In this document: piece by piece, positions 4,567 through 19,448 of the stretch
How positions within the stretch are numbered: position 1 is the stretch's first letter
Layout of the letters: every line of letters begins with the position of its first letter
DNA from: Acidimicrobiales bacterium
GTDB lineage: Bacteria; Actinomycetota; Acidimicrobiia; Acidimicrobiales; Iamiaceae
Assembly (NCBI GenBank): GCA_025463985.1
Contig: JAODBM010000128.1
Location: 62,001-126,000, forward strand
DNA: 64,000 bases
Direction: 5' to 3'
Made by a program: the position numbers and the translations under genes
Notes under the pieces: generated by a model
What the model was told of the DNA's origin: nothing
Database searches by the model: none
The model's input: only the letters and a program-made list of their open reading frames with translations

Positions 4567-6573
4567 TCACTGGTCCATGCCCGACGGTGCGCCGCGGCGT
4601 CGACCAGCGAACGCTTCGAACGCCTCGAGCGACGTCGGCTGGGCGAGGGCGCCGATGCTGGCCGCCTCGGTCGCGGGCGTCCCCCGCAGGATGCGCTTGA
4701 CCGGCACCTCGAGCTTCTTGCCCGACAGCGTCCTGGGGATCATGGGGACCACCTCGATGTGGTCGGGGACGTGCCGCGGCGACAAGGCGGAGCGCAAGGT
4801 GGTGACGATGCGGCGGCGCAGGTCGTCGTCGAGCTCGGCGGCAGGCGCCAGCGCCACGAAGAGCAACAGCTCGCCCATGGCGTCGTCGCTGGCGTCCTCG
4901 AGGTGCACGACCAAGCTGTCGGCCACGTCCGGGAGCTCTTCGATGGCCGTGTAGAAGTCGCTCGTGCCGAGGCGCACGCCACCCCGGTTGAGGGTGGAGT
5001 CGCTGCGACCCGAGATCACGCAGGTGCCGTCGTCGCGGATGGTGATCCAGTCCCCGTGACGCCAGACGCCGGGGAAGTGCTCGAAGTACGACGCGCGGTA
5101 CTGCGAGCCGTCGTCGTCGCCCCAGAAGCCGACCGGCATCGAGGGCATGGGCTCGGTGAGCACCAGCTCGCCCTCCTCGCCGGTCACGGGCGCGCCGTCG
5201 GGGTCGAAGGTGGCGACGGCGCAGCCCATGTACCGGCAGCTGATCTCGCCGGCGCGGACGGGCGTCAACGGCGAGCCGCCCACGAAGGCCGAGCAGATGT
5301 CGGTCCCACCCGAGACCGACGACAACAAGACGTCGGCCTTGACCGCGTCGTAGACCCAGGTGAACCCTTCGGCGGGAAGCGGCGAGCCGGTCGAGCCGAT
5401 CGCGCGGAGGGCCGAGAGGTCCGCCAGGTCGGCGGGCCGGATGCCGGCCTTGCGCGACGACATGATGAACGGCGCCGACGTGCCGAAGAACGTGACGCCG
5501 AGGTCGCTCGCCATGCGCCAGAGCCCGTCGATCCCCGGGTGCGCCGGATTGCCGTCGAAGAGCACGACCGACGCGCCGACCAGGGGGCCCGAGACGAGCG
5601 AGTTCCAGACCATCCAGCCGGTCGTGGAGAACCAGAAGAACCGGTCGGCCGGTCCGAGGTCTGCATAGAGACCATGGTGCTTCGCGTGCTCCAGGGTGAT
5701 GCCCCCGTGGCCGTGCACGATGGCCTTCGGCAGCCCGGTCGTGCCTGACGAGAACAACACGTAGAGCGGGTGTGCGAAGGGAACCGGGTCGAACTTCGGT
5801 TCGGCATCTGCGTCCTCGACCAGCGTGTCCCAACGGATGGCACCGGGAACCCTCGCGGTCCCCTCGTCCAGATAGGGCACCAGAACCGTGTGCTGCACCG
5901 TTGGGAGGCCGGCCCGGATCTCGGCGACCTCATGTGAGCGATCCACCGCCTTGTCGCCGTACCGATAGCCGTCGACGACGAGCAGGACCGTCGGCTCGAT
6001 CTGGCTGAAGCGATCGAGGACCGAGCGGGCGCCGAACTCCGGCGCGCACGATGCCCACACCGCGCCGAGGCTGGCCGACGCCAGCATCGCGATCATCGTC
6101 TCGGCGATGTTCGGCATGTAGGCCGCCACCCGATCGCCGGCCTTGACGCCGCACCGCTGAAGGCCCGCCCGGCACGCGGCGACGGCCTGTCGCAGCTCGC
6201 CCAGCGTGAGCACCACCGGGTCGCGCGACTGCGAGAGCGACCACACGGCCACCTCGTCCTCGTCGACGCCCGGCATGGCCAGCACGTGGGCGGCGTAGTT
6301 GAGCGTCGCCCCCGGAAACCAGCGGGCCCCAGGCAGGTCGTGCGAGGTGAGCACCGCGGTCGGCTGCTGGTCGAAGGTGATGTCGAACTCGTCGACGATC
6401 GTCGACCAGAACGCGTCGAGGTGCTCGATCGACCACCGCCACGCCGCTTCGTGATCGGCGAGGCGGACCCCGTGGTTCGCCTCGAGGCGATCGAGAAAGC
6501 GGCCGAGGCGCGACGTATGGCGGGCGCCGGCGCTCGGCGTCCAAAGGGTCTGTGGAGAGCGGGAACGTTCCAT
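4567..6573 (-). CDS. acetoacetyl-CoA synthetase-like beta-keto acid:CoA ligase
   Basis: The 668-aa product belongs to the AMP-forming acyl-CoA synthetase superfamily and matches the length of acetoacetyl-CoA synthetases (about 650-670 aa). It has an N-terminal ACAS_N-like region (AWRWSIEHLDAFWSTIVDEF), the P-loop-like LFSSGTTGLPKAIVHGHGG, GWMVWNSLVSG, and a C-terminal GKKLEVPVKRIL with the Lys expected for the adenylation half-reaction. ATG 6573 has GAGGAGA 6 nt upstream. Known enzymes activate acetoacetate with ATP and CoA. The divergent operon encodes a HyuA/HyuB pair resembling ketone carboxylases, whose product is a beta-keto acid, so this enzyme may activate that product. Confidence 0.88.
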   Translation of the reverse strand: MERSRSPQTLWTPSAGARHTSRLGRFLDRLEANHGVRLADHEAAWRWSIEHLDAFWSTIVDEFDITFDQQPTAVLTSHDLPGARWFPGATLNYAAHVLAMPGVDEDEVAVWSLSQSRDPVVLTLGELRQAVAACRAGLQRCGVKAGDRVAAYMPNIAETMIAMLASASLGAVWASCAPEFGARSVLDRFSQIEPTVLLVVDGYRYGDKAVDRSHEVAEIRAGLPTVQHTVLVPYLDEGTARVPGAIRWDTLVEDADAEPKFDPVPFAHPLYVLFSSGTTGLPKAIVHGHGGITLEHAKHHGLYADLGPADRFFWFSTTGWMVWNSLVSGPLVGASVVLFDGNPAHPGIDGLWRMASDLGVTFFGTSAPFIMSSRKAGIRPADLADLSALRAIGSTGSPLPAEGFTWVYDAVKADVLLSSVSGGTDICSAFVGGSPLTPVRAGEISCRYMGCAVATFDPDGAPVTGEEGELVLTEPMPSMPVGFWGDDDGSQYRASYFEHFPGVWRHGDWITIRDDGTCVISGRSDSTLNRGGVRLGTSDFYTAIEELPDVADSLVVHLEDASDDAMGELLLFVALAPAAELDDDLRRRIVTTLRSALSPRHVPDHIEVVPMIPRTLSGKKLEVPVKRILRGTPATEAASIGALAQPTSLEAFEAFAGRRRGAPSGMDQ

Positions 6574-6878
6574 CGGTGTCTCCTCGATGCGCCGCTCGCG
6601 CGGTGCGCGACAGGCGAGGCGGGGGGCGGTGCAGGTCATGGTGCAGGCGCTGTCAAGAGGTGCAACGAGCCGCACGATCGGCCAAACGCCGGCGTCGGGG
6701 GGCGGTTGTAGAGATCCACATCCGGAAGGCGAAAAGTCTGTTCGGCCGGCCAATGACATCCGCCACACCGTCAGCCATCCTCCACTCAGCCACCCGCTCG
6801 CCGTGAAGTTCTCCGGTCGAGCGCAGACCCGCAATGGGTCTGACTTCCGGCTGCCCCATCTCCCGCGCTGAAGGACCC
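6574..6878. promoter_or_regulatory. divergent intergenic region between the ligase and transporter operons
   Basis: This 305-bp stretch has no credible gene and must hold both divergent promoters. It contains a perfect 7-bp inverted repeat (CAGACCC, 5-nt spacer, GGGTCTG at 6824-6842) about 37 bp before the plus-strand start. A GGCCGGCC palindrome lies near 6750. No convincing -35/-10 pair could be assigned. The inverted repeat is a candidate operator for the PucR protein encoded downstream, but that link is only inference. Confidence 0.4.
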
Positions 6879-8108
6879 ATGATGATGATCCGGTCACGCT
6901 CACGTCGATCCCGCTGCACGGCCGTCCTGGCGGCCACCGTCCTGCTCTCGTTGGCGGCATGCTCCTCCTCGAGCGGCTCGGCAAGCTCCGGCAGTTCGGG
7001 CTCGAGCGAGGTGAAGGTGGGGCTCCTCTTCGACAAGAGCGGTCCGCTGGCCGCGTTCTCGAAGATCGGCCTGGACGGCGCCCGCCTCGCAGCGAAGCAG
7101 ATCAATGACGGCGGCGGGTTCACGGTCGCTGGCAAGAAGTACACGATCAACCTGGTCGAGACCGATCCCCGCTCCGACGTCTCCCGCGCGTCGCTGCTGA
7201 CCAAGCAGCTGATCCGGGACGACAAGGTGAGCTTCATCATGGGCCCGACCGCGAACGAGGAGCTCTACGCCTCGCAGGCCGTGAGCCGGGGAACCGTGAC
7301 CCAGGTCGCCGACTCGGCCGGCATCGGCCTCGTCGCCGAGAAGAACTCGAGCGCCTTCGCCTACCAGCCGCAGCCCTCACCGTCGGTCTGGTACCCGGGC
7401 TGGATCAAGCAGCTGAAGACGCGCTACCCGAACATCAAGCGCATGGCCCACCTCATCGAGAACGACGACACGGGCAAGGTGCTTGCGGCTGCGGCCGAGC
7501 AGGGCGCCAAGGCGCAGGGGATCGAGATCACCACGCGCTTCTACGACCCGACGCAGACCGACTTCACCTCGGACCTCACGGCGCTCAAGGCCACGCACCC
7601 GGACGTGCTCGCCATCGGCATCATCCCGCCGCTGTACCCCACGCAGCTCAAGCAGGCCGTGCAGCTGGACGTCGCCACCACCGCATACCTCGCGCCGCTG
7701 GGTGACGAGAGCCTCGCCGTCGGCGCGACCGCACCGGTCCCGAAGACCAAGACGCCGATCTTCCTGACCCGGCTCTCGCCGGTGCTCGGCGCCAACGCAA
7801 CGTCGGCGGAGCGCAAGCAGGCCGCCGACGGGGTCAAGGCCGCCACGGGTGCGGACCTTCCGGCCGACGGTCTCCAATACCAGCTGTTCCTCTACTCGGG
7901 ATCGCTCCAGCTCTTCGTGAAGGCCATGGAGAAGGCGGGCACGACCACCGACCAGAAGAAGATCAACGAGGCCCTGAAGTCGGTCTCCTACGACACGCCC
8001 GTCGGGACGATGACCTTCGGTGACCACTTCCTCACCGCCTTCCCCCAGGACCTCGTGGTCGTCACCAACGGTGCCGTCAGCACCCGCGAGCACCTGCCCG
8101 CCGGGTGA
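6879..8108 (+). CDS. branched-chain-amino-acid-type ABC transporter substrate-binding lipoprotein
   Basis: The 409-aa product has a basic N-terminus, a hydrophobic stretch and a lipobox LAAC followed by a Ser/Gly linker, so it is exported and lipid-anchored. The mature part starts VKVGLLFDKSGPLAAF and continues with GARLAAKQIND, the normal Peripla_BP_6 (LivJ-like) beginning. ATG 6879 was chosen because AAGGA lies 4-8 nt upstream and the signal peptide then starts correctly. It is the first gene of the operon with the amidohydrolase, HyuA/HyuB and LivHMGF. The family binds amino acids but also amides, aromatic acids and other small organics. Here the ligand is probably the precursor metabolised by the operon. 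Confidence 0.9.
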   Translation: MMMIRSRSRRSRCTAVLAATVLLSLAACSSSSGSASSGSSGSSEVKVGLLFDKSGPLAAFSKIGLDGARLAAKQINDGGGFTVAGKKYTINLVETDPRSDVSRASLLTKQLIRDDKVSFIMGPTANEELYASQAVSRGTVTQVADSAGIGLVAEKNSSAFAYQPQPSPSVWYPGWIKQLKTRYPNIKRMAHLIENDDTGKVLAAAAEQGAKAQGIEITTRFYDPTQTDFTSDLTALKATHPDVLAIGIIPPLYPTQLKQAVQLDVATTAYLAPLGDESLAVGATAPVPKTKTPIFLTRLSPVLGANATSAERKQAADGVKAATGADLPADGLQYQLFLYSGSLQLFVKAMEKAGTTTDQKKINEALKSVSYDTPVGTMTFGDHFLTAFPQDLVVVTNGAVSTREHLPAG

Positions 8109-8165: not shown

Positions 8166-9851
8166 ATGTATGACATCTTGATCAAGGGGGCGACCGTCGT
8201 CGACGGCCTCGGCAGCCCGCCCATCCGATCCGACGTCGGGATCAAAGACGGCCGCATCGTCTTCGTCGGGAAGGCCGAGGAGTCCGGTCGTCGAGTGGTC
8301 GACGGGACGGGCAAGCACCTCATGCCTGGCTTCATCGACATCCACACGCACTACGACGCCCAGATCGCCTGGGACCCGTACTGCACGCCGGCCAACTGGC
8401 ATGGGGTGACCACGGTCGTTGCCGGCAACTGCGGCTTCACCTTGGCGCCCACCCGGCGGTCGCACCACGACAACCTGATCTCACTGCTCTGCCGGACCGA
8501 GGGCATGCCCCGGGAGGCGCTCGAGCACGGGATCCCGTGGGAATGGGAGACCTTTCCCGAGTACATGGACTGGCTCGACCACCAGCGCCTCGGCATCAAC
8601 TTCGCCACCAACATCGGGCATTCCGCGGTGCGGTACTTCGTCCTCGGCGACGAGGCGTGCGAACGCCAGGCGACCGATCATGAGATCCGCCAGATGCGGG
8701 CGCTCGTCGACGAGGGTCTCGACGTCGGGGCGGTCGGCTTCACCACGTCGTTCGTGCTCACGCAGAACGACCTGCAGGGGCGGCCAGTTCCGAGCCGTCT
8801 GGCCTCGGTGGACGAGACGCTCGAGCTCGCTTCTGCCCTGCGCGGCCGGTCCGCCGGCGTGGTCGGCGTGAACCTCGCGTCGATCCCACAGGGGATCGAC
8901 GCGGCCGAGCGGCAGCTGCTCCGCGACCTGGCCGCGGTGTCGGGTCGCCCGGTCAACTGGAACGTGCTGATCCAGTGGGACTCCGCACCTGGCGTCGAGG
9001 ACGAGCTTCTCGCCTTCGGTCACGAAGCGGCGGCCGGGGGCGCCCAGATCTGGGCCGTCGGCAGCTGCCTTCCGTTCGAGATGCAGTTCTCGCTGCGCTC
9101 GACGAGCCTGCTCGATCCCTTCCCGACGTGGAAGCAGCTGATCGCCCTCCCCGAGCCGGAGAAGCTCGCTGCGATGCAGGACCCCGAGTGGCGCCGACGT
9201 CTGACCGAGGACATGGACGGCCGGATCACCAGCTACTTCCACTGTCGCTGGGAGGACACGTTCGTGGTGAGCGCCCAGGCCGAGAGCCAGAAGCGCTGGG
9301 AGGGATCATCGGTAGCCGAGGTCGCGCAGCAGATGGGCACCGACCCGATCGGCGCCATGCTCGACGTGGCGGTGGCCGACGGCCTCAACACGCAGTTCCT
9401 CATGGCCCGGCTGGCCAACGTCAAGCCCGGCGCCGTCGAGAAGATCATCAACGATCCCAACGTGATCGTCGGGACGTCCGACGGTGGCGCCCACCTCGAC
9501 GCAATGTCCGATCCGCACTTCACGACGAGCCTCCTCGCTCGCTGGGTCCGCGACGAGGGAGCGATGTCCCTCGCCGCCGCGGTGCGGGCGCTGACGTTCG
9601 TTCCCGCGCAGCTCTATGGCCTCTGGGACCGCGGCCGGATCCAGGTCGGCGCCGCGGCGGATCTGATCCTGCTCGACCTGGAATCGCTCGGGTGGGGTGC
9701 GCTCGAGACGCTCCATGACCTCCCCGCCAACGCTCCCAGGTACGTCCGGCGCGCTCGCGGCTATGAACTCGTCCTGGTGAACGGGCGGCCGGCGCTTGAG
9801 GAGGGCGTCGAGACCGAAGAGTTCTCCGGCCAGCTCATCCGCGGGGCCTGA
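8166..9851 (+). CDS. N-acyl-D-amino-acid deacylase / D-aminoacylase-family amidohydrolase
   Basis: This 561-aa protein is a metal-dependent amidohydrolase. It has the N-terminal small beta domain (MYDILIKGATVVDG), the metal motif HTH at residues 60-62 within MPGFIDIHTHYDAQ, GNCGF, and a late GTSDGGAH region that carries the catalytic Asp. The length and order fit the D-aminoacylase branch rather than hydantoinase/dihydropyrimidinase. RBS GAAGGA lies ahead of ATG 8166. Members hydrolyse N-acyl-D-amino acids or related amides, but many have unknown substrates. Its place between the binding protein and HyuA/HyuB suggests it releases or processes the compound handled by them. Confidence 0.85.
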   Translation: MYDILIKGATVVDGLGSPPIRSDVGIKDGRIVFVGKAEESGRRVVDGTGKHLMPGFIDIHTHYDAQIAWDPYCTPANWHGVTTVVAGNCGFTLAPTRRSHHDNLISLLCRTEGMPREALEHGIPWEWETFPEYMDWLDHQRLGINFATNIGHSAVRYFVLGDEACERQATDHEIRQMRALVDEGLDVGAVGFTTSFVLTQNDLQGRPVPSRLASVDETLELASALRGRSAGVVGVNLASIPQGIDAAERQLLRDLAAVSGRPVNWNVLIQWDSAPGVEDELLAFGHEAAAGGAQIWAVGSCLPFEMQFSLRSTSLLDPFPTWKQLIALPEPEKLAAMQDPEWRRRLTEDMDGRITSYFHCRWEDTFVVSAQAESQKRWEGSSVAEVAQQMGTDPIGAMLDVAVADGLNTQFLMARLANVKPGAVEKIINDPNVIVGTSDGGAHLDAMSDPHFTTSLLARWVRDEGAMSLAAAVRALTFVPAQLYGLWDRGRIQVGAAADLILLDLESLGWGALETLHDLPANAPRYVRRARGYELVLVNGRPALEEGVETEEFSGQLIRGA

Positions 9852-9926: not shown

Positions 9927-12092
9927 ATGGCCATGTCCCAGTTCCGTATTGGGGTCGACATCGGCGGTACGTTCACCGACTGCGCGATCGTCGACGGCGA
10001 CGGCACCGTCACCGTCGGAAAGGCGCCGACCACCCCGACGGACCCGTCCATCGGATTCTTCAACTCGATCACCGTCGCCGCCGAGAAGCTCGGTCTCGAC
10101 CTGCGATCCGCCCTGGGCCGCACCGATCGGCTGGCCCACGGGACCACGGTCGGCACCAACGCGATCGTGGCCCGTCAGGGCGCCAAGGTCGGCCTGATCA
10201 CCACCATGGGCCACGGCGACACGCTGCGCATCATGGACAATGGCGGCCGCTCCAACGGCGTCAGCATCGAGAAGATCCTCCACTATCCGAGCTCGGATCT
10301 CCCCGAACCGTTCGTCGCCCGCGCCATGGTGCGCGAGGTCCCAGAGCGGGTGGACGCCGACGGCGACGTGGTCGTCGCGCTGTCGGACGAGGCCATCCGC
10401 GAGGCCGTCGAGCAGCTCGTGGCGCAAGGCGCCGAGGCGTTCGCGGTCTGCTACCTGTGGTCCTTCATGAACAACGCGCACGAGCTGCGCACCCGCGAGC
10501 TCATCGAAGAGCTCGCGCCCGGCACCTCCGTGAGCCTTTCCCACGAGATCGCGCCGAAGGTCGGCGAGTACCCGCGCATGGCCACCACGGTCCTCAGCGC
10601 CTACATCGCCCCCTTGATGGAGCGCTACGTCGCCACCATCGAAGAGCGCGCCGCGGCGAACGGCTACCTGGGCCCGGTCTTCTTCATGCAGGGCAATGGT
10701 GGCTTGGCCACCGGCGAGATGGTGGGCCGCATGCCCATCTCCACGGTGCAGTCCGGGCCGGTCGCCGGCGTGATCGGCTCGGCCGACATGGCCGCGGCCC
10801 TCCAGGCCGAGGGCGTGATCACCACCGACATGGGTGGCACCACGCTCGACGTCAGCGTGATCGCGAACGGTCGCCCGCTCGCCCGGGAGGACACGATCGT
10901 CGAGCAGCACACGCTGTTCCTCGACCTGATCGACGTGCGCTCGGTCGGCGCCGGCGGTGGCAGCGTGGCCTGGATCGACGAGTCCTCGGGCGTGCTGCGC
11001 GTCGGACCGCGCAGCGCGGGGGCCGTCCCCGGGCCGGTCTGCTACGGCAACGGCGGCGAGGAGGTCACGGTGACCGACGCCGACCTCGTGCTCGGCTTCA
11101 TCGACCCCGAGCGGTTCCTCGGCGGCCGCATGCGACTGCGCGATGACCTCGCGCGGGCGGCGGTGGCGAAGCTCGGCGACCGGCTCGGCATGAGCGTCGA
11201 GGAGTGCGCGGCCGGCATCAACAAGGTGATCGACTCGAAGATGGGCGATCTCATCCGCACCATGACCGTGCAACGGGGCCTCGATCCCCGGAAGTTCTCG
11301 CTCTATGCGTTCGGTGGCGGCGGCGGCCTGCACGGTGCCATGTACGCCAAAGACTTGGGCCTGCAGGAGGTGGTCGTGCCGTCGGCCGAGACCGCGGCGG
11401 TGTGGTCGGCGCTCGGTGTGGCGGTCGGCGACTTCAGCCAGACCTTCCACCGTCCCGTCTACATGACCGAGCCGTTCGACGTCGCGTCGCTGCAGCGCAC
11501 GATCGAGGTGCTCGAGGCCCAGGCCGAGCGCTACAAGGCCGAGATCGAGGCCCACGTGGAGTCGGTCACGTTCACGCGGTCGGCGAGCTGCAAGTACGGG
11601 ATGCAAGTCTACGAGGTGGGGGCGCAGCTCGGCGACGGCACCCTCGACGACGAGGCCGTCCGGGCGATGATCGCGAGCTTCGAGGCCAACTACGCCCGCC
11701 AGTTCGGCGCCGACGCCGGCTACCGGGAGGCCGGGGTCGTGCTCACCGGGCTGTCGGTCACGGTCGAAGGCAAGGTGGCGACGGTGCCGCGCTCGAGCGA
11801 CGGCGCCGAATCGTCGGCGCCCGCGGGCGACGCGGAGCGGCCCTCGCGGCCCGTCTATTGGATGGAGTTCGGCTCGTTCGCCGAGACGCCGGTCTGGAAC
11901 GGCGAGCTGCTGACGCCCGGCAACGAGCTGACGGGCCCGAGCATCGTCGAGTACCCCGACACCACCGTCCTGGTCCGCCCGAACTGGCACCTGCGCGTCG
12001 ATGCCTTCGGGAACCTGCGGTTGAAGGGCCATGCGCACGACCCGCAGCCGATCGACGCCGACGCTCGCACCGCATCCGCACTCGCACTCTGA
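9927..12092 (+). CDS. hydantoinase A / oxoprolinase-family ATP-dependent subunit (acetone-carboxylase-beta-like)
   Basis: The 721-aa product has the ASKHA-type phosphate loops of HyuA: RIGVDIGGTFTD at residues 6-17 and TTDMGGTTLDVSVI in the middle, plus the late glycine motif AFGGGGGLHGAMYA. The size is close to the ~78-kDa beta subunit of acetone carboxylase and to stand-alone HyuA proteins. These subunits phosphorylate the substrate or bicarbonate using ATP. It has a good RBS (GAAAGGA) before ATG 9927. The HyuB partner starts 43 bp after the stop. On sequence alone N-methylhydantoinase or ATP-dependent lactamase is also possible. The gamma-like domain on the partner tilts the call toward carboxylation. 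Confidence 0.88.
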   Translation: MAMSQFRIGVDIGGTFTDCAIVDGDGTVTVGKAPTTPTDPSIGFFNSITVAAEKLGLDLRSALGRTDRLAHGTTVGTNAIVARQGAKVGLITTMGHGDTLRIMDNGGRSNGVSIEKILHYPSSDLPEPFVARAMVREVPERVDADGDVVVALSDEAIREAVEQLVAQGAEAFAVCYLWSFMNNAHELRTRELIEELAPGTSVSLSHEIAPKVGEYPRMATTVLSAYIAPLMERYVATIEERAAANGYLGPVFFMQGNGGLATGEMVGRMPISTVQSGPVAGVIGSADMAAALQAEGVITTDMGGTTLDVSVIANGRPLAREDTIVEQHTLFLDLIDVRSVGAGGGSVAWIDESSGVLRVGPRSAGAVPGPVCYGNGGEEVTVTDADLVLGFIDPERFLGGRMRLRDDLARAAVAKLGDRLGMSVEECAAGINKVIDSKMGDLIRTMTVQRGLDPRKFSLYAFGGGGGLHGAMYAKDLGLQEVVVPSAETAAVWSALGVAVGDFSQTFHRPVYMTEPFDVASLQRTIEVLEAQAERYKAEIEAHVESVTFTRSASCKYGMQVYEVGAQLGDGTLDDEAVRAMIASFEANYARQFGADAGYREAGVVLTGLSVTVEGKVATVPRSSDGAESSAPAGDAERPSRPVYWMEFGSFAETPVWNGELLTPGNELTGPSIVEYPDTTVLVRPNWHLRVDAFGNLRLKGHAHDPQPIDADARTASALAL

Positions 12093-12135: not shown

Positions 12136-14484
12136 ATGGGTTTCAAGGAACGCTGGGAAAGCCTGCGGGACGGTTACCTGCCGCCGGAGAAGCTGGACGT
12201 GTCGGGCGTCGACCTCCATACCGACTATGAGGCCGACGTGGAGCCGATCACCTACGAGGTGCTCCGCTCCCGGCTCTGGTCGATCAACTGGGACCACCAG
12301 GACACGATCCGCCGGGTGTCGGGATCGGGCGTCACCGTGTACGCCGACGACTTCAACACCACCATCGCGACCGAGGACGGCGACGGCGTCGTCTTCGGCC
12401 CGAGCATCCAGTTCTTCGCCGGCTGTGCCGACCTGGCCATCAAGTGGACGATCGAGCACCGGGGCCCGAACGTCGGGATCCGTCCGGGCGACGTGTTCAT
12501 CCACGACGACCCGTGGGTGGGCACGAACCACCAGATGGACACGGCCGTGTACGCGCCGGTCTTCGTCGACGGTCGCCTCTACTGCTGGGTCTACAACTGC
12601 GTGCACCAGCAAGAGCTCGGTGGCGTCGAGCCCGGTGGCTTCGTCCAGCAGGCCGTCGATGCCTATTGGGAGGCCACGGCCTTCCCGCCCCTCAAGCTCA
12701 TCGACCGGGGTGAGTGGCGCGAGGACCTCGTAGACGCGTGGATCCGTCGGTCGCGCAACCCCGAGCTCTGCCTCCTCGAGCTGAAGTCGCAGGTGGCCGG
12801 CATCGAGTTCGCCAAGGCGCAGGTCGAGGCGGCCATCGCGGAGTACGGCGCCGGGGTGCTGAAGGGCGTCATGCGCGGCATGATCCACCGCACCGAGGCC
12901 GCGTTCCGGCGCCGCCTCGACCTCGTCCCGAACGGCACGTGGACCGACATCCGCTACATCGCCGGCGCCCTGCCGGGCGACCGGAAGGTCTACAAGATGG
13001 CGCTCGCGGTGACGAAGAACGACGAGGGCCTCGTCTTCGACAACGCCGGGACCGACGACGCCACGGGCTCGTTCAACATGGCGCCCGGCGTCTGGCGCGC
13101 GGCGATCCTGAACGCGGCGATGCCCCTCCTCGCGTACGACCAGTACCTCTGCGGCGCCGGCGTGCTGCGCTGCATCCAGTTCCGCCCCGCGCTCGGCACC
13201 ATCACCTCGGCGCGGCATCCGGCCGCGGTGAGCACGTCGCTCGGCACGACGAGCGCGGTGACCCAGGCGCAGTACGTGCTCAACAAGATGATGAGCGCCG
13301 CCCCCGACCTGCGGCCCGACATGCTCGGAGCGTCCGCGCTGCACACCCAGGTGTACACGCAGATGTTCGGCAAGGACAGCAAGGGCAACCCCTACGCCAA
13401 CTTCCCGTTCGACGGGGTGGGCGGCGGGTCCGGCGCCTTCTCCTTCCGGGACGGGATCAACCACGGCGGTGGCATCATCTCGACCCGCCTGCGGATCGGC
13501 GGCGTCGAGGAGTGGGAGCGCAACATCCCGTTCCTGTACCTCTACCGCAAGGAGGTCGCGGGCGGCGGCGGCCACGGCCAGTGGCGCGGCGGCACCGGCC
13601 TGGCCAGTGGCTGGACCGGCCACAAGACCGACGAGTCGTTCATCTCGTCCGGTGGCCTGTTCCAGTCGGTCACGCACGGCCACGGCCTCTCCGGCGGCTA
13701 CCCGGGCAGCGGGGGATCGTTCTGGGCCGCGCTCGACACCGACCTCGCGGCCGGCTTCGAGGAAGGACGCTTGCCGGGCAGCCCCGCGGCGGTGCGCGAG
13801 ATGGCGCCCCACGGCGGTCTGGCCGCGGCCAAGAAGTACGACCACCGGCTCGTCGAGGGTGACATCTTCGAGGTCACGCCCTGCCTGGGCGCCGGGCACG
13901 GCGATCCGCTGAAGCGGCTGCCGAGCTTGGTCGTCGACGACGTCGCCGACGGCCAGCTCCCGCTGGAGGACGCCCTGCGGGTCTACGGCGTCGTCCTCGA
14001 CGGCCACGGCGGCTTCGACGCCGAGGCGACCGACGAGGCCCGCGATCGCGTGCGGGCGCAGCGCCGAGCGGACGACGCCCGGCCGAACCCGCCGGCCGCG
14101 TCCGAGCGGCGGCTCGACCACGTCAGCGGCTGGGCCCTGGAGACGGTGTGCGTCGGCCGGGTGGACGGCGAGCCCTGGCTGGGGTGCGCCGACTGCCAGA
14201 CGGCGCTCGCGCCCGCGTACTCCGGCAACTACCGCGACGCGTGCTGCTGGTCGCAGCAGCTCCTCGAGGACATCGACCCCAGGGTGTTCATGCCGTCGCT
14301 CTCGCAGACCGACACGACCCTCGTGCTCCGGCAGTACGTGTGCCCCGGCTGCGGGGGGATCCTCGACAGCGACGTCTGCCAGGCCGACGATCCCGCCTAC
14401 CAGGACGTGCAGCTCGAGCCGGAACGGCTGGCCGACGTGCTCGACGGGCCCGCGGCCGCCGACGCGCCGTCGACGCTGGACTGA
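12136..14484 (+). CDS. HyuB-family subunit fused to an acetone-carboxylase-gamma-like zinc domain
   Basis: The 782-aa protein has a HyuB core of about 640 residues and a linker. The last ~120 residues carry CADC (684-687) and CPGC (736-739, in RQYVCPGCGGILD). That spacing and context resemble the separate gamma subunit of acetone carboxylase. The core keeps His132, Asp135 and His157. Their 3- and 22-residue spacing equals that of the manganese ligands I recall for the acetone carboxylase alpha subunit (His150, Asp153, His175). A strong RBS (AAGGAGGA) precedes ATG 12136. With HyuA it should form an ATP-dependent carboxylase or, less likely, a lactamase/hydantoinase. Confidence 0.87.
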   Translation: MGFKERWESLRDGYLPPEKLDVSGVDLHTDYEADVEPITYEVLRSRLWSINWDHQDTIRRVSGSGVTVYADDFNTTIATEDGDGVVFGPSIQFFAGCADLAIKWTIEHRGPNVGIRPGDVFIHDDPWVGTNHQMDTAVYAPVFVDGRLYCWVYNCVHQQELGGVEPGGFVQQAVDAYWEATAFPPLKLIDRGEWREDLVDAWIRRSRNPELCLLELKSQVAGIEFAKAQVEAAIAEYGAGVLKGVMRGMIHRTEAAFRRRLDLVPNGTWTDIRYIAGALPGDRKVYKMALAVTKNDEGLVFDNAGTDDATGSFNMAPGVWRAAILNAAMPLLAYDQYLCGAGVLRCIQFRPALGTITSARHPAAVSTSLGTTSAVTQAQYVLNKMMSAAPDLRPDMLGASALHTQVYTQMFGKDSKGNPYANFPFDGVGGGSGAFSFRDGINHGGGIISTRLRIGGVEEWERNIPFLYLYRKEVAGGGGHGQWRGGTGLASGWTGHKTDESFISSGGLFQSVTHGHGLSGGYPGSGGSFWAALDTDLAAGFEEGRLPGSPAAVREMAPHGGLAAAKKYDHRLVEGDIFEVTPCLGAGHGDPLKRLPSLVVDDVADGQLPLEDALRVYGVVLDGHGGFDAEATDEARDRVRAQRRADDARPNPPAASERRLDHVSGWALETVCVGRVDGEPWLGCADCQTALAPAYSGNYRDACCWSQQLLEDIDPRVFMPSLSQTDTTLVLRQYVCPGCGGILDSDVCQADDPAYQDVQLEPERLADVLDGPAAADAPSTLD

Positions 14485-14487
14485 CCG

Positions 14488-15348
14488 TTGAGCACCTTCC
14501 TGCAGCAGACCGTCAACGCGCTGGTGCTGGCGAGCGTCTACGCCCTGATCGGGCTGGGCTTGAACCTTTCCTTCGGGTTGACCGGCCTCGTGAACTTCGC
14601 CCACGGCCAGTTCCTGATCCTCGGCGGCTTCATCGCCTACGAGATCTTCCGTGCCACCGACTCGTTCGTCGCGGCCCTGCTCGGCGCGACGATCGCGATC
14701 GCGGTCCTCGGGGTCATCACCGAGCGCACGCTGTTCCGACGCACCTACGGGCGCCCGGAGGCCGGCTTCGTCGCGTCGCTCGGGTTGCTGTTCGTCATGG
14801 GCGCGGCGTTCGTGGAGATCTGGGGGCGTGACCCGCACAGCATCCGCCCACCCGTGTCCGGGTCGGTCACGGTGCTGGGAGCGATCATCAGCCTCGATCG
14901 CCTCACGGTGGTGATCCTCGGCGGACTGATGCTGGCCCTGGTGTTCGCCGGCTTGCGCTGGCTGCCGATCGGCCGCCGCACCCGGGCGGCCAGCGAGGAC
15001 CACACGGCGGCGCTGCTCTGCGGTTTCGATCCCCTGCAGTGCGGGGTGGTCGCCTTCACCGTCGGAGCCGCGTGCGCCGGGTTCGGCGGGGCGCTGCTCG
15101 CCACCGCCTTCCCGTTCACGGCCTACGCGGGCTACGGCTACGTGGTCAAGGGCTTCGTGGTCGCCCTCATCGCCGGGCTCGGAAGCATTCCGGGCGTGGC
15201 CATCGGCGGACTGCTGCTCGCGCTCGCCGAGGTGTACGGCGGGGCCTACCTGTCGAGCCCATGGTCGGCCGGGTTCGGGTACGCGGTCATGCTCGTCATC
15301 CTGCTCGTCCGGCCCCGCGGCCTGTTCGGGTCCGTGCGAGCGGCATAG
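14488..15348 (+). CDS. branched-chain-type ABC transporter permease LivH-like
   Basis: The 286-aa polytopic membrane protein has about eight hydrophobic segments. The signature GLGLNLSFGLTGLVNFAHGQFLILGGF near residues 22-48 is the usual LivH start. The late EAA-like stretch around IAGLGSIPGVAIGGLLLALAE contacts the ATPase. The start is TTG 14488, 3 bp after the HyuB stop, which implies translational coupling. It forms the membrane channel with the next gene. Confidence 0.9.
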   Translation: MSTFLQQTVNALVLASVYALIGLGLNLSFGLTGLVNFAHGQFLILGGFIAYEIFRATDSFVAALLGATIAIAVLGVITERTLFRRTYGRPEAGFVASLGLLFVMGAAFVEIWGRDPHSIRPPVSGSVTVLGAIISLDRLTVVILGGLMLALVFAGLRWLPIGRRTRAASEDHTAALLCGFDPLQCGVVAFTVGAACAGFGGALLATAFPFTAYAGYGYVVKGFVVALIAGLGSIPGVAIGGLLLALAEVYGGAYLSSPWSAGFGYAVMLVILLVRPRGLFGSVRAA

Positions 15349-15350
15349 CC

Positions 15351-16442
15351 ATGGCCGCAGCACGGACGAACGCGGAGGACCGGCACCCGCTGCGCAACGG
15401 CTTCGCCCGGCGCGCCGCGAGCGGCGGCCTGATCGCGATCGCGATCGCCGTCGCCCTCGGCGGTGGGTCGGAGAGCCTCATGTCGTTCGCGACCCTCGCG
15501 CTGATCTATGCGGTCGCGGCGGCTGCCGTCGATCTCATGAAGAAGGACGTCGGCCTCATCAGTCTCGGTCATGCCGCGATCTGGGGAGCGGGGGCCTACG
15601 CGGCCGCGCTGTGCGTGACGTCGGCCGGCTGGAGCCCGTGGCTGGCGCTGCTCGCCGCGGTCGCCGCGGGCGCGGTCGCCGCGGCGCTCATGGTCGTCCC
15701 CGTCATCCGCTCGGTGGGGTTCCACTTCTCGATCCTGACCCTCGCCCTGAACGAGCTCGCAGTGCTGGCCGTGGTCAACGGCGGCGACGTCACGAAGGGC
15801 TCGTACGGGATCGTGGTCCCCGGCTTGACCCGGCTCGGCCCGATCAACTTCGAGTCCAACATGGTCGTCGCCGGGCGGGTGCTGACGCCCACGGGCACCT
15901 ACCTGATCTTCGTCGCGGTGGTCACGGCGATCGCGCTGCTCGCCGTGGCCGCCATCCGGCGCACGGCCTGGGCGCAGACGCTGCACGCCGTGCGCGACGA
16001 CGCCCTGCTGGCCCGGTCGCTCGGGACGAGGCCCGAGCAGCACATCGTCCTGATCGCGATGGCGAGCGGCGCCTTGGCCGGCCTCAGCGGCTTCCTGTAC
16101 CTGAACGAGGCCACCGCCATCCAGCCGTCGCTCTTCAGCGGCCAGGCCTCGGTGCTGTTCGTGCTCATCGCCTTGCTGGGCGGGAGCGGCTACCTGCTCG
16201 GCCCCGTGCTGGGTGCGTTCGCCGCCGTGTTCCTCCCGGGCCTGTTCCAGCTCTCACCCGAGGTGCAGCAGATGGCGTACGGCGGGGCGCTCGTTCTGGT
16301 GGCGATCGCGTTCTCCGGCGGCTTGGCGAGCGGAGCCGACCGGGTGTGGCTCCAGCTCCGAGGCCGGTCCGGCGTGTCCGTCCCGGCGCTCGCCTGGCCG
16401 TGGCGGGAGCGCCCGGCTGCAGGAGGCCCCGATGGCCGGTAG
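15351..16442 (+). CDS. branched-chain-type ABC transporter permease LivM-like
   Basis: The 363-aa product has many membrane segments and the LivM signature DVGLISLGHAAIWGAGAYAAAL near residues 65-86, then GSGYLLGPVLGAFAAVFLPGL. ATG 15351 lies 2 bp after the LivH stop. An upstream in-frame extension to 15039 exists but would overlap LivH antigen-like, Arg-rich sequence and is rejected. Its C-terminal 11 bp overlap the ATPase start. It pairs with LivH as the transmembrane channel. Confidence 0.9.
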   Translation: MAAARTNAEDRHPLRNGFARRAASGGLIAIAIAVALGGGSESLMSFATLALIYAVAAAAVDLMKKDVGLISLGHAAIWGAGAYAAALCVTSAGWSPWLALLAAVAAGAVAAALMVVPVIRSVGFHFSILTLALNELAVLAVVNGGDVTKGSYGIVVPGLTRLGPINFESNMVVAGRVLTPTGTYLIFVAVVTAIALLAVAAIRRTAWAQTLHAVRDDALLARSLGTRPEQHIVLIAMASGALAGLSGFLYLNEATAIQPSLFSGQASVLFVLIALLGGSGYLLGPVLGAFAAVFLPGLFQLSPEVQQMAYGGALVLVAIAFSGGLASGADRVWLQLRGRSGVSVPALAWPWRERPAAGGPDGR

Positions 16443-17169
16443 CGGCGGCGTCGAGCTGGCCGGCATCAGCGTCGCCTTCCAGGGCGTGCGCGCGCTGTCC
16501 GACGTGGACCTGCACGTCGCCGCCGAAGGCGTGACCGGCCTGATCGGCCCGAACGGGTCGGGGAAGACGACGGTCTTCAACGTCGTGTCCGGCATGGTCC
16601 GCCCTGGCTCGGGCGTCTTGCGCTGGGAGGGCCAGCGCATCAACCGCTGGAGCATGCCGCGGCGCGTGCGGTCCGGACTCGTCCGGACGTTCCAAGAGCC
16701 GTCGGTGTTCGCGTCCATGACGGTTCGGGAGGCCTTTGCCTTCGTCGAACGGACCACAGCCCGCCATCACGGCGCCGGCAGCGCCCGCCCGGGCCTGCGC
16801 GACGAGCTGGTCGAGGTGACCCGCCTCGGGTCGTGCTGGGACAGCCCCGCAGCGCAGCTCGCGCACGGACAGAAGCGACTGCTCGGGGTCTCGCTGGCGA
16901 TGCTGGCCGCGCCTCGGCTGCTGATGCTCGACGAGCCGGCGGCGGGCATGAGCCCCGCCGAGCTCGACCTGCTCGGCGAGGCGATCCACAAGGTCCGCGA
17001 CCTCGGCGTGGGCATCTGGATCGTCGAGCACCACATGGAGTTCCTGTTCGGCATCGCCGACTACGTCGACGTCCTCAACGCCGGGACGGTCATCGCCTCG
17101 GGCACGGCGGACGAGGTGCGGCAGAGCGCCGAGGTGATCTCGGTCTACCTGGGAGGCGAGCATGTTTGA
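16432..17169 (+). CDS. branched-chain-type ABC transporter ATP-binding protein LivG-like
   Basis: The 245-aa ATPase has Walker A GPNGSGKTT (about residues 38-46), Walker B LLMLDEPAAG and a switch His in VEHHMEF. The ABC signature is degenerate (LAHGQKRLL instead of LSGGQ), which is seen in several LivG proteins. AGGAGG at 16421-16426 is a strong RBS for ATG 16432. The gene overlaps LivM by 11 bp and LivF by 8 bp. Confidence 0.9.
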   Translation: MAGSGGVELAGISVAFQGVRALSDVDLHVAAEGVTGLIGPNGSGKTTVFNVVSGMVRPGSGVLRWEGQRINRWSMPRRVRSGLVRTFQEPSVFASMTVREAFAFVERTTARHHGAGSARPGLRDELVEVTRLGSCWDSPAAQLAHGQKRLLGVSLAMLAAPRLLMLDEPAAGMSPAELDLLGEAIHKVRDLGVGIWIVEHHMEFLFGIADYVDVLNAGTVIASGTADEVRQSAEVISVYLGGEHV

Positions 17170-17902
17170 GGTGCATGGCCTCTCGGCCGGCTACGGGACC
17201 GGCGCCGACGTGATCAGCGGGGTCACCATCGACGTGTCGCCGGGCGAGGTCACCTGCATCCTCGGGCTGAACGGCGCCGGCAAGACCACCATGCTCAACG
17301 CGCTGTCGGGCCTCGTGGCGCGTTCGTCGGGCGAGATCGAGCTGGACGGATCGCGGCTCGACCACCTGACCCCGGTCGAGCGCGTGCACCAGGGCCTCGT
17401 GCACGTCCCCGAGGGGCGGCACATCTTCCGTCGACTGTCCGTCGAGGACAACCTGCGCGTGTGCCTCGGCCGCGGCGGTCGGAACGAGCGCGACCAGATC
17501 GAGCGGGTGTACGCGCACTTCCCGGCGTTGGCCGAGAAGCGCCGACGAGCGGCCGGCGGCCTCAGCGGTGGCCAGCAGCAGATGCTGGCGATCGGCCGCG
17601 GGCTCGTGCTGTCGCCCAAGACGCTTCTCCTGGATGAGCCGTCGGTCGGCCTCAGCCCGATGCTCGTCGCCGAGACGGCGGAGAAGATCGCCGAGCTGGC
17701 CGAGACGCTGCACATCCCGGTGCTGCTCGTCGAGCAGAACCTCGACATGGCGCTGAAGGTGGCCCGCCGCGCCTACGTGCTGCGCCGCGAGCTCGTGGGT
17801 CCGTTCGTGGACGACGAGCTGGCGGACCGGGACCGGATCCAGGCCATGTACTTCGGCGGGGGCCCGGCCTCGGACCCCGAGCGGCTCGCGACCCCGAGCT
17901 GA
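17162..17902 (+). CDS. branched-chain-type ABC transporter ATP-binding protein LivF-like
   Basis: The 246-aa ATPase has Walker A GLNGAGKTT, signature LSGGQQQML, Walker B TLLLDEPSVGLSP, and the LivF-typical VPEGRHIFRRLSVEDNL. It overlaps the LivG end by 8 bp and completes the transporter. A strong hairpin starts 2 bp after its stop, so this is probably the end of the operon. Confidence 0.92.
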   Translation: MFEVHGLSAGYGTGADVISGVTIDVSPGEVTCILGLNGAGKTTMLNALSGLVARSSGEIELDGSRLDHLTPVERVHQGLVHVPEGRHIFRRLSVEDNLRVCLGRGGRNERDQIERVYAHFPALAEKRRRAAGGLSGGQQQMLAIGRGLVLSPKTLLLDEPSVGLSPMLVAETAEKIAELAETLHIPVLLVEQNLDMALKVARRAYVLRRELVGPFVDDELADRDRIQAMYFGGGPASDPERLATPS

Positions 17903-17940: not shown

Positions 17941-19188
17941 TCAGCCCTCGCCGACGGCCAGGTCACGCGCGACGCAACGGCGCTCCTCGGCCCGACGCAA
18001 CAGGCGCATCGCGGTGGCGATGTCCACCAGCATCCAGAAGTCGTGCAGGTCGCCGCCCACGGCCTGCGTGAGCTTCTGCAACCGGTAGCGGACCGTGTTC
18101 GGGTGCATCTGGACCGCCTTCGCCGCGGTCTGGATGTTCATCCCGCAGTCGAGGTACGCCTGCAGCGTCGCACCGAGCCCATCAGGCGCATCGTCCGCGA
18201 GCAGCGTCTGGAGCTCAGGCGGCACGAGCCGCAGCGCCGTATCGGTCGCGCTCGACACGAGGTAGTCGTGGACGCCCACGTCGCTCAGGCACCGCACCGG
18301 CTCGCCGGCCGAGCACACGGCCAGCGCGGCCAGCGCCTCGCCGTAGCCGTCCCGGGCATCGAGCAGGCGCGGGTGGCCGAAGCTCACACCGGCGCAGGCG
18401 CTCGGCTCACCGGAGCCGCCGCCCGACAGCGCTCGGAGGATCGAGGACGCCGCACGGCGCGGCGCCGAGAAGACCGCGCCCACCAGCTCCGAGCGGCGAC
18501 AGCTGAGGATGTGCTGGAGGCCGGCGGAGGTGAGCTCGCTGCGCACGCGGGACTCCAGCCGCTGCAGGTCGAGGTCGCCGCTCGAGCGGCTGACGGGCAG
18601 GCGCGCCGTGACGAACGAGACCTCGCTCGACGGCTCGCAATCGAGCACGGCGAGCCGGATCGGCAGGTTGGCCTCGTTCGGCTGCCCCTGCAGGAGGTCC
18701 TCCACCAGCTCGTACTCGAGGCGTTGCCGCTCCTGCTGGAAGGTCGGGCCGCCCTCGCTGTACGCCGTGGTGGCAACGTTGCTCAGCTCGTCGACGTAGG
18801 CGAGCCAGTTGCGGCTGAGCGACGCCAGGTCGTCGCGGAACGCTTGATAGGGGCTGCCGAGCGCGACGAGCTCGTCCCAGGCGATCCGGGCCGAGAGCCG
18901 ATAGGCGTGCAGGTGGGTGGCCAGCGACATCGACGCCGAGCGCCGCCGCCCGGCAAGGTGGCGCCAGAACGCCAGCTCGTCGGGCCGCAGGCTCCGCCCT
19001 TCCATCTGCAGCTCGAGGAACTGCCGCAGGAAATGGGCGTTCGCCTCGTTGATCTCCTGCACCAGGCGCTCGTCCTGGATGGCGTCGTACTCGGCGATCT
19101 CGGCGCGCAGGTTTGCGAGCATGGCGCCCGCGATCTTGCGACGGTGACGATCGAAGTCCCGCAGGACCTCGGCGATGCTGTCTGCCAT
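17941..19188 (-). CDS. PucR-family transcriptional regulator
   Basis: A 415-aa regulator with a helical sensory N-terminal region. Its C-terminal PucR-type HTH (HTH_30) runs through NIQTAAKAVQMHPNTVRYRLQKLTQAVG. PucR proteins control purine, proline and other catabolic genes. ATG 19188 was chosen; an in-frame ATG at 19266 would add a poorly conserved Gly/Ser-rich 26 residues, and both have a GGAGG about 13 nt upstream. It faces the end of the transporter/carboxylase operon and is the best local candidate regulator for that operon, although this is only inferred from position. Confidence 0.85.
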   Translation of the reverse strand: MADSIAEVLRDFDRHRRKIAGAMLANLRAEIAEYDAIQDERLVQEINEANAHFLRQFLELQMEGRSLRPDELAFWRHLAGRRRSASMSLATHLHAYRLSARIAWDELVALGSPYQAFRDDLASLSRNWLAYVDELSNVATTAYSEGGPTFQQERQRLEYELVEDLLQGQPNEANLPIRLAVLDCEPSSEVSFVTARLPVSRSSGDLDLQRLESRVRSELTSAGLQHILSCRRSELVGAVFSAPRRAASSILRALSGGGSGEPSACAGVSFGHPRLLDARDGYGEALAALAVCSAGEPVRCLSDVGVHDYLVSSATDTALRLVPPELQTLLADDAPDGLGATLQAYLDCGMNIQTAAKAVQMHPNTVRYRLQKLTQAVGGDLHDFWMLVDIATAMRLLRRAEERRCVARDLAVGEG

Positions 19189-19448
19189 CGTGTCGCACGT
19201 CGCCTCCAGCCACGCGCTCCCGCCGCGCCAGCCGCTGGAAGGGCGGCTTCCTCCTTGCATCGTCATGGTGGCAGTCGCCCCCCTCCGGCGCGACTGCATG
19301 GCCGCTGGCGAGCCAGGTGCTGCGCAGTCTGCAGCGCCCCCGACTCCCCCTCGTCGCAGGGATCGTAGGCCGTCCCGCCGCGGCGGCGCGTCATCGCCAG
19401 GTCCGCCATCCACCGTGCTCTCGGCCGCGCCGAGCAGGCTGCGGGGCC

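Follow-up and report, generated by a model that had tools for sequence, protein, structure and literature searches.

A HyuB-type subunit fused to a carboxylase gamma-like domain in an Acidimicrobiales genome, and its place in the hydantoinase/ketone carboxylase superfamily

Background

To our knowledge, only two types of ketone carboxylase have been characterised. The acetone carboxylase of Xanthobacter autotrophicus (AcxABC, PDB 5svb/5svc/5m45; Acx in the following) consists of one ATPase chain, one metal-binding chain and one gamma chain, encoded in the order A-B-gamma. The acetophenone carboxylase of Aromatoleum aromaticum (ApcABCDE, PDB 5l9w; Apc), with the gene order A-gamma-C-D(-E), includes a second ATPase chain, alpha', and an epsilon subunit; its gamma is short, being devoid of the N-terminal extension of about 50 residues found in Acx gamma. 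The same HyuA and HyuB folds recur in caprolactamase CapAB (PDB 6yra) and in the ATP-dependent N-methylhydantoinase (PDB 7hk5/9h03), neither of which has a gamma subunit. The superfamily is defined by its ATP motifs and its metal site (PMC5214803, PMC8453981), and the presence of a gamma gene is one criterion for the annotation of carboxylases (Weidenweber et al., PMC5214803).

In this work, we describe a locus contained in a stretch of 64,000 nucleotides, here called the window, from the genome of an Acidimicrobiales bacterium of the Iamiaceae (contig JAODBM010000128.1). An earlier note, based on the sequence alone, had proposed that a HyuB subunit encoded there carries a C-terminal extension similar to the gamma subunit of acetone carboxylase, and that it forms a two-protein ketone carboxylase together with HyuA.

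Results

The fused gene and its operon

The features of the locus are collected in Table 1. The fused gene starts with an ATG preceded by an aaggagga ribosome-binding site and runs without interruption, its codon-position GC pattern being alike on both sides of the linker. Its HyuB-type core is the counterpart of the alpha chain of acetone carboxylase and of the delta chain of acetophenone carboxylase. The gene lies in an operon with the order binding protein, amidohydrolase, hyuA, hyuB-gamma, livHMGF, where consecutive genes are separated by 57, 75, 43, 3, -10, 1 and -8 bp. The ATP motifs of the HyuA partner are intact (DIGGT at residue 11, DMGGT at 301, GAVPGP at 365) and HyuB carries an Asp/His/Asp/His site, so that both hallmarks of the superfamily are found. 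The top-scoring model for HyuA is that of the caprolactamase alpha subunit CapA, at 537 bits.

Table 1. Coordinates of the fused gene, of its domains and predicted ligands, of the surrounding genes, and of the unfused haloarchaeal counterparts
Feature	Position	Strand	Basis
Acetoacetate--CoA ligase, divergent from operon	4567..6600	-	TIGR01217 797.8 bits (cut-off 520.9)
ABC-transporter substrate-binding lipoprotein, operon start	6834..8108	+	Peripla_BP_6 2.3e-38
Amidohydrolase (Amidohydro_3), 561 aa, same operon	8166..9851	+	Pfam 1.6e-34; 75 bp before hyuA
hyuA, 721 aa, ASKHA ATPase partner subunit	9927..12092	+	Hydantoinase_A
hyuB-gamma fusion gene, 782 aa	12136..14484	+	Continuous ORF, ribosome-binding site, two Pfam domains over cut-off
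HyuB-type core, residues 37-591, Hydantoinase_B	12244..13908	+	Pfam 2e-91
Predicted metal site: Asp72 (12349-12351), His132 (12529-12531), Asp135 (12538-12540), His157 (12604-12606)	12349..12606	+	
Phe94, at the acetone carboxylase His111 position	12415..12417	+	Alignment column
Gamma-like zinc domain, residues 677-763, Acetone_carb_G	14164..14424	+	Pfam, hhalign, PDB profile search, model
CADC, Cys684 and Cys687, predicted Zn ligands	14185..14196	+	Invariant 72/72; aligned with Apc gamma CxxC
CPGC, Cys736 and Cys739, predicted Zn ligands	14341..14352	+	Invariant 72/72; aligned with second Apc gamma CxxC
Branched-chain-amino-acid-type ABC transporter LivH, LivM, LivG, LivF	14488..17902	+	BPD_transp_2 twice, ABC_tran twice
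PucR-type regulator, convergent with livF	17941..19413	-	HTH_30 1.8e-17, GGDEF_2
Haloarchaeal unfused hyuA-hyuB-gamma	L223:7968-10255, L224:7968-10248, L228:7932-10162		

The tail is a gamma-subunit homologue

In the whole protein, the Acetone_carb_G model (PF08882) scores 21.9 bits, the cut-off being 21. Because a lone score so close to the cut-off is weak, relatives were collected. The tail alone scores 26.3 bits (E 9e-6), all 68 of the homologous tails examined match the same model, and a profile built from these 68 tails aligns by hhalign with acetophenone-carboxylase gamma at E 1.7e-23 and with acetone-carboxylase gamma at E 4.6e-16. A search of the PDB with the tail profile retrieved 5l9w_C (E 4.2e-16) and 5m45_C (E 1.7e-8). 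The AlphaFold2 model of the tail, with a pLDDT of 89.5, has only four significant Foldseek matches, 5svc_C, 5svb_C, 5m45_C and 5l9w_C (E 3.2e-5 to 3.6e-4), all of them gamma chains of acetone or acetophenone carboxylase, the next match being at E 0.43. Cys684, 687, 736 and 739 are invariant among 72 full-length fused proteins; in Apc gamma the corresponding CxxC cysteines are Cys22/Cys25 and Cys75/Cys78 (PMC5214803).

The profile comparison, together with a confident model that matches solved gamma subunits alone, settles the point: the tail of the window HyuB is a genuine gamma-subunit homologue. We considered whether it could instead be an unrelated zinc ribbon, matched to Acetone_carb_G by chance through its two CxxC motifs, as the marginal single-sequence score and the fact that a generic Zn ribbon is also matched by 5 of the 68 tails might suggest; given the match of every tail to Acetone_carb_G, the profile-profile E-value and the absence of other significant structural neighbours, this was rejected as extremely improbable. 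Tails that have lost their cysteines are, moreover, still recognisable, and haloarchaea have a separate gene annotated as gamma at the very same place.

The extension was thus rightly described as gamma-like, and its CADC (684-687) and CPGC (736-739) motifs, as well as His132, Asp135 and His157, lie where the earlier note had placed them. The specific resemblance to acetone carboxylase has to be revised: judged by sequence, acetophenone-carboxylase gamma is the closer relative, and the tail also shares with it the lack of the N-terminal extension of Acx gamma.

In two cases, the gamma tail is retained with most of its zinc cysteines gone: the protein encoded at L057 16002-17933 (-), with SVTG...CPVTG, and the one at L226 9983-12292, on the Rhodococcus opacus plasmid pCP105, with TKTA...CPIS. 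The gamma domain can therefore outlive its zinc site. Some Acx gamma chains (L028, L037, L041) are also without most of the zinc cysteines.

Structure of the full-length protein and its metal site

The full-length model of the fused protein (pLDDT 91.5, pTM 0.93) finds its best PDB chains by Foldseek in the alpha subunit of acetone carboxylase, 5m45_A (E 1.9e-48; about 24% identity) and 5svc_A; Apc (5l9w_A) ranks third, followed by N-methylhydantoinase and CapB. When profiles are compared, a profile of ten fused proteins scores best with the Apc chain ApcD, at 338 bits versus 279 for hydantoinases.

Asp72, Asp135 and His157 are found in 72 of 72 fused proteins and His132 in 71; the four residues align with acetone carboxylase Glu89, Asp153, His175 and His150, respectively. 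The parallel drawn earlier between the His132/Asp135/His157 triad and the metal ligands of acetone carboxylase is thus borne out by the alignment, but the triad is not diagnostic. Ordinary HyuB proteins have it with the same spacing in nearly all rows tested (His 21/21, Asp 19/21, His 21/21), every Apc and Acx row contains it, and the lactamase CapB has all four metal ligands, a correspondence stated outright in the caprolactamase paper (PMC8453981); being present in every class, hydantoinases included, the triad was discarded as a carboxylase signature. Nor is the site as a whole Acx-like: the fourth ligand is Asp in the window protein, in Apc and in hydantoinases, and Glu in all Acx rows.

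A further difference concerns acetone carboxylase His111, for which a role on carboxyphosphate has been proposed (PMC5543143). Of 89 fused proteins, 83 have M, F or L in this column, which is His in all Acx rows, and Phe is also found there in 4 of 12 Apc-type rows. Phe94 in place of His111, together with Asp72, makes the surround of the active site unlike that of Acx. Directly after His132, all 72 fused proteins have Gln, a position occupied by Ile or Ser in two hydrolase references, by Asn in Apc and by Pro in Acx.

Relatives, split versions and distribution

Whole-genome searches of the order and of the phylum revealed nine further HyuB-gamma fusions, eight of which are adjoined by hyuA, the ninth being truncated where its contig ends. 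When 84,980 species genomes were scanned, at least 544 relatives were confirmed; the best 80 of these were retrieved for analysis, and the gamma tail is present in nearly all complete proteins among them. The possibility that the fusion is unique to the window genome could thus be dismissed. Within the family, 23 further genomes were searched and gave no fused gene, their sole matches being ordinary HyuB; on these grounds the hyuA/hyuB-gamma operon can be regarded as accessory, and it may have been acquired laterally. In the window's genome, which is 83% complete, there is no second Acetone_carb_G gene, and other Hydantoinase_A matches fall only on contigs C80 and C155, in both cases at a contig end. 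The gamma domain is likewise missing from all 20 control loci of ordinary HyuB, in line with the earlier statement that ordinary HyuB proteins lack the tail.

Unfused hyuA-hyuB-gamma sets occur on plasmids of the haloarchaea Haladaptatus, Haloterrigena and Natronosalvus. Their HyuB shares 35-38% identity with the window protein up to residue 625-634, where the match ends, and its gene is followed within 2 bases, or overlapped, by a gene of 93-99 aa annotated 'acetone carboxylase subunit gamma'. The split gammas score 94-102 bits with the fused-tail model, versus 47-61 with Apc gamma and 32-43 with Acx gamma, and the tree places the corresponding HyuB chains within the fused group or immediately next to it. 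The same lineage thus includes versions in which gamma is a separate gene, which provides independent confirmation of the identity of the tail.

Elsewhere in the phylum, acetone-carboxylase alpha chains are themselves fused to gamma (L060:6342-9212, L061, L062 and L192:5692-8514); these form one clade in the tree, and indicate that gamma fusion arose more than once. In a single family of the same order, a gamma-like match of divergent sequence falls within a separate small ORF (L048:9737-10423, L049:8890-9600 on the minus strand, L050:8529-9212), about 2 kb downstream of hyuBA genes in B-A order.

Phylogenetic position

HyuB trees separate hydantoinases (Hyd, with CapB and N-methylhydantoinase) from Acx plus Apc in strongly supported clades, and place the gamma-bearing HyuB, both fused and split, as a third group between them. 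The window HyuB is excluded from the Acx clade (100%) and from the Apc clade (99%), and its core also falls, in an unrooted tree, outside the fully supported Hyd clade; L231, a fused haloarchaeal protein, branches basally on the Hyd side. For HyuA, the tree groups the ATPases of the fused systems with hydantoinases, on the side of CapAB and N-methylhydantoinase, at 98% SH-aLRT, and not with Acx/Apc; despite this grouping they lie, the tree being unrooted, outside the Hyd clade proper. All these trees are unrooted, were built in quick mode and contain long branches. As the HyuB and HyuA trees do not lean in the same direction, we did not accept them as proof of function. By sequence, gamma-bearing proteins are a distinct lineage between hydantoinases and acetone/acetophenone carboxylases.

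Gene neighbourhoods

The gene divergent from the operon is firmly identified as an acetoacetate--CoA ligase (NF002937 910 bits, cut-off 639), the enzyme expected downstream in the pathway of a carboxylase forming a beta-keto acid. The same gene is found in L137, where it divergently adjoins the fused operon, and in L177, immediately downstream of a true acx operon. In a close relative, L065, an AMP ligase, an SDR, hyuA and hyuB-gamma form an overlapping cluster, and a Rhodococcus opacus plasmid features the order SDR, hyuA, hyuB-gamma, SDR, CoA ligase; both clusters are consistent with a route from alcohol to ketone, acid and CoA ester. The split sets of haloarchaea adjoin 2,3-butanediol dehydrogenase and 2-oxoacid-dehydrogenase-complex genes (Haladaptatus, L223), an acetoacetate decarboxylase family gene, an AMP ligase and an enoyl-CoA hydratase (Haloterrigena, L224), or a thiolase and an acyl-CoA dehydrogenase (Natronosalvus, L228).

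Two side observations concern individual loci. On the Mycobacterium branderi plasmid pJCM12687 (L225), fused hyuB-gamma and hyuA lie amid five cytochrome P450 genes, along with a 2,4'-dihydroxyacetophenone dioxygenase family gene, surroundings which suggest a ketone-degradation island. In L073, of the same subclade as the window protein, an Amidohydro_3 homologue (12322-13829, 337-bit match) lies directly downstream of the fused gene.

Overall, the neighbourhoods of fused genes are very diverse. Genes of acyl-CoA metabolism, among neighbours chosen by codon-model gene picks, lie within 4 kb of 20 of 39 fused cassettes versus 3 of 19 ordinary ones (p 0.011), the ordinary controls coming from one order and not being phylum-matched. 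Separate counts for each gene family revealed no significant difference between fused and ordinary cassettes, and two ordinary, gamma-less hyuAB plasmid loci are also located amid CoA genes. Since only the pooled acyl-CoA measure differs, neighbourhood statistics were not retained as proof.

Discussion

The window locus resembles Acx in having one ATPase, one metal chain and one gamma, in a gene order, hyuA followed by hyuB-gamma, which matches A-B-gamma except for the fusion, and in the acetoacetate-CoA ligase nearby, as in L177. It differs in the short tail, in Asp72 and Phe94 in place of Glu89 and His111, and in its position in the tree, where a fully supported branch splits Acx from the window lineage. 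Apc provides the closest core profile, ApcD, the closest gamma, and the same Asp as fourth ligand. Its gene order has gamma as a separate gene after A, and neither the second ATPase chain nor the epsilon subunit is found at the window locus, which has one hyuA only; Phe occupies the His111 position here, and the tree branch is a separate one. Since the enzyme departs from Acx in tree position, Glu89 and His111, and from Apc in gene set and tree position, neither name is apt, although the enzyme may well work like either. CapAB and N-methylhydantoinase share both folds and represent the side to which HyuA is nearest in its tree, but they have no gamma, and their HyuB core belongs to a different, fully supported clade.

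The earlier proposal of a two-protein ketone carboxylase holds as far as composition is concerned: one ATPase chain and one chain joining metal site and gamma, in agreement with the split haloarchaeal versions and with the lack of another Acetone_carb_G gene in the genome. As to activity, we consider that HyuA/HyuB-gamma probably carboxylates a carbonyl substrate to a beta-keto acid, with a probability of roughly 55%. This reading is favoured by the composition, by the structural ranking, by the flanking acetoacetate-CoA ligase and by the neighbours of relatives, while the HyuA phylogeny, Phe94, and the amidohydrolase and amino-acid-type transporter of the operon call for caution.

In the reaction we propose, HyuA, given its intact ATP motifs and the mechanism of the family, would use ATP to phosphorylate the carbonyl compound to an enol phosphate. 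The intermediate would reach the predicted Asp72/His132/Asp135/His157 site in the HyuB core, which the gamma domain would clamp with a structural Zn held by the four predicted cysteine ligands. There, the activated carbonyl would most likely combine with bicarbonate or CO2 to give a beta-keto acid, which could then be activated by a CoA ligase, for instance the acetoacetate-CoA ligase encoded next to the operon. A ketone-type compound of polar nature, imported by the ABC transporter of the operon, is the likely substrate; simple acetone appears unlikely, because the operon encodes ABC-type uptake as well as an amidohydrolase.

A substrate that is nitrogenous or polar would suit both amidohydrolase and importer, and hydrolysis has to be weighed. 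The enzyme could be an ATP-dependent hydrolase of cyclic amides (a hydantoinase, lactamase or imidase) in which gamma was kept, or gained, as a structural clamp; the ABC transporter would serve for uptake, and the amidohydrolase would cleave the ring-opened product. HyuA, by tree and by its CapA score, speaks for hydrolysis, as do a metal site common to hydrolases, the presence of amidohydrolase and LIV-type transporter in the operon, the former again beside the fused gene in L073, and the view that a direct catalytic role of gamma is unlikely (PMC5214803). All characterised hydrolases of the family, however, lack a gamma subunit (PMC5214803), as do the control loci, the operon adjoins an acetoacetate-CoA ligase, and several relatives lie beside SDR and CoA-ligase genes, not beside genes for nitrogen compounds. 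Hydrolysis is, in our opinion, a possible but rather unlikely function.

More doubtful still is an ATP-dependent activation of a lactone, enone or cyclic diketone with some other, lineage-specific outcome. The position of the lineage in HyuB trees, apart from Hyd and Acx/Apc, would agree with it, and so would the lineage-specific Gln after His132, the replacement of His111 by M, F or L, and the diversity of the neighbourhoods; nothing, on the other hand, points positively to any particular other chemistry.

For carboxylation in the lineage at large, which spans several bacterial phyla and haloarchaea, the odds appear about even: its members would be biotin-independent carboxylases of two or three polypeptides, acting on carbonyls beyond acetone and acetophenone and having a metal surround unlike both known types.

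In the open-access PMC literature, to which our search was confined, no description of a HyuB-gamma fusion was found, and a term search of PMC10865871 returned no mention of the fused architecture. Domain databases may already list the combination of Hydantoinase_B and Acetone_carb_G. The parts and the fold were already known; the novelty is best seen in a third lineage with gamma inside the hydantoinase/ketone carboxylase superfamily.

In the annotated records examined, the relatives are named just hydantoinase B/oxoprolinase family protein, and a fused gamma evades the criterion of Weidenweber et al. (PMC5214803), which relies on a gamma gene. The fused domain is a sequence marker which sets hundreds of genomic loci apart from ordinary hydantoinases. 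It also makes testable whether gamma is a mark of carboxylation or a mere scaffold, the natural split, fused and zinc-ligand-less versions being ready comparisons for its role. Shared by hundreds of relatives, the layout marks a large branch of ATP-driven carbonyl enzymes which is apparently uncharacterised and in which new carboxylases are probably included.
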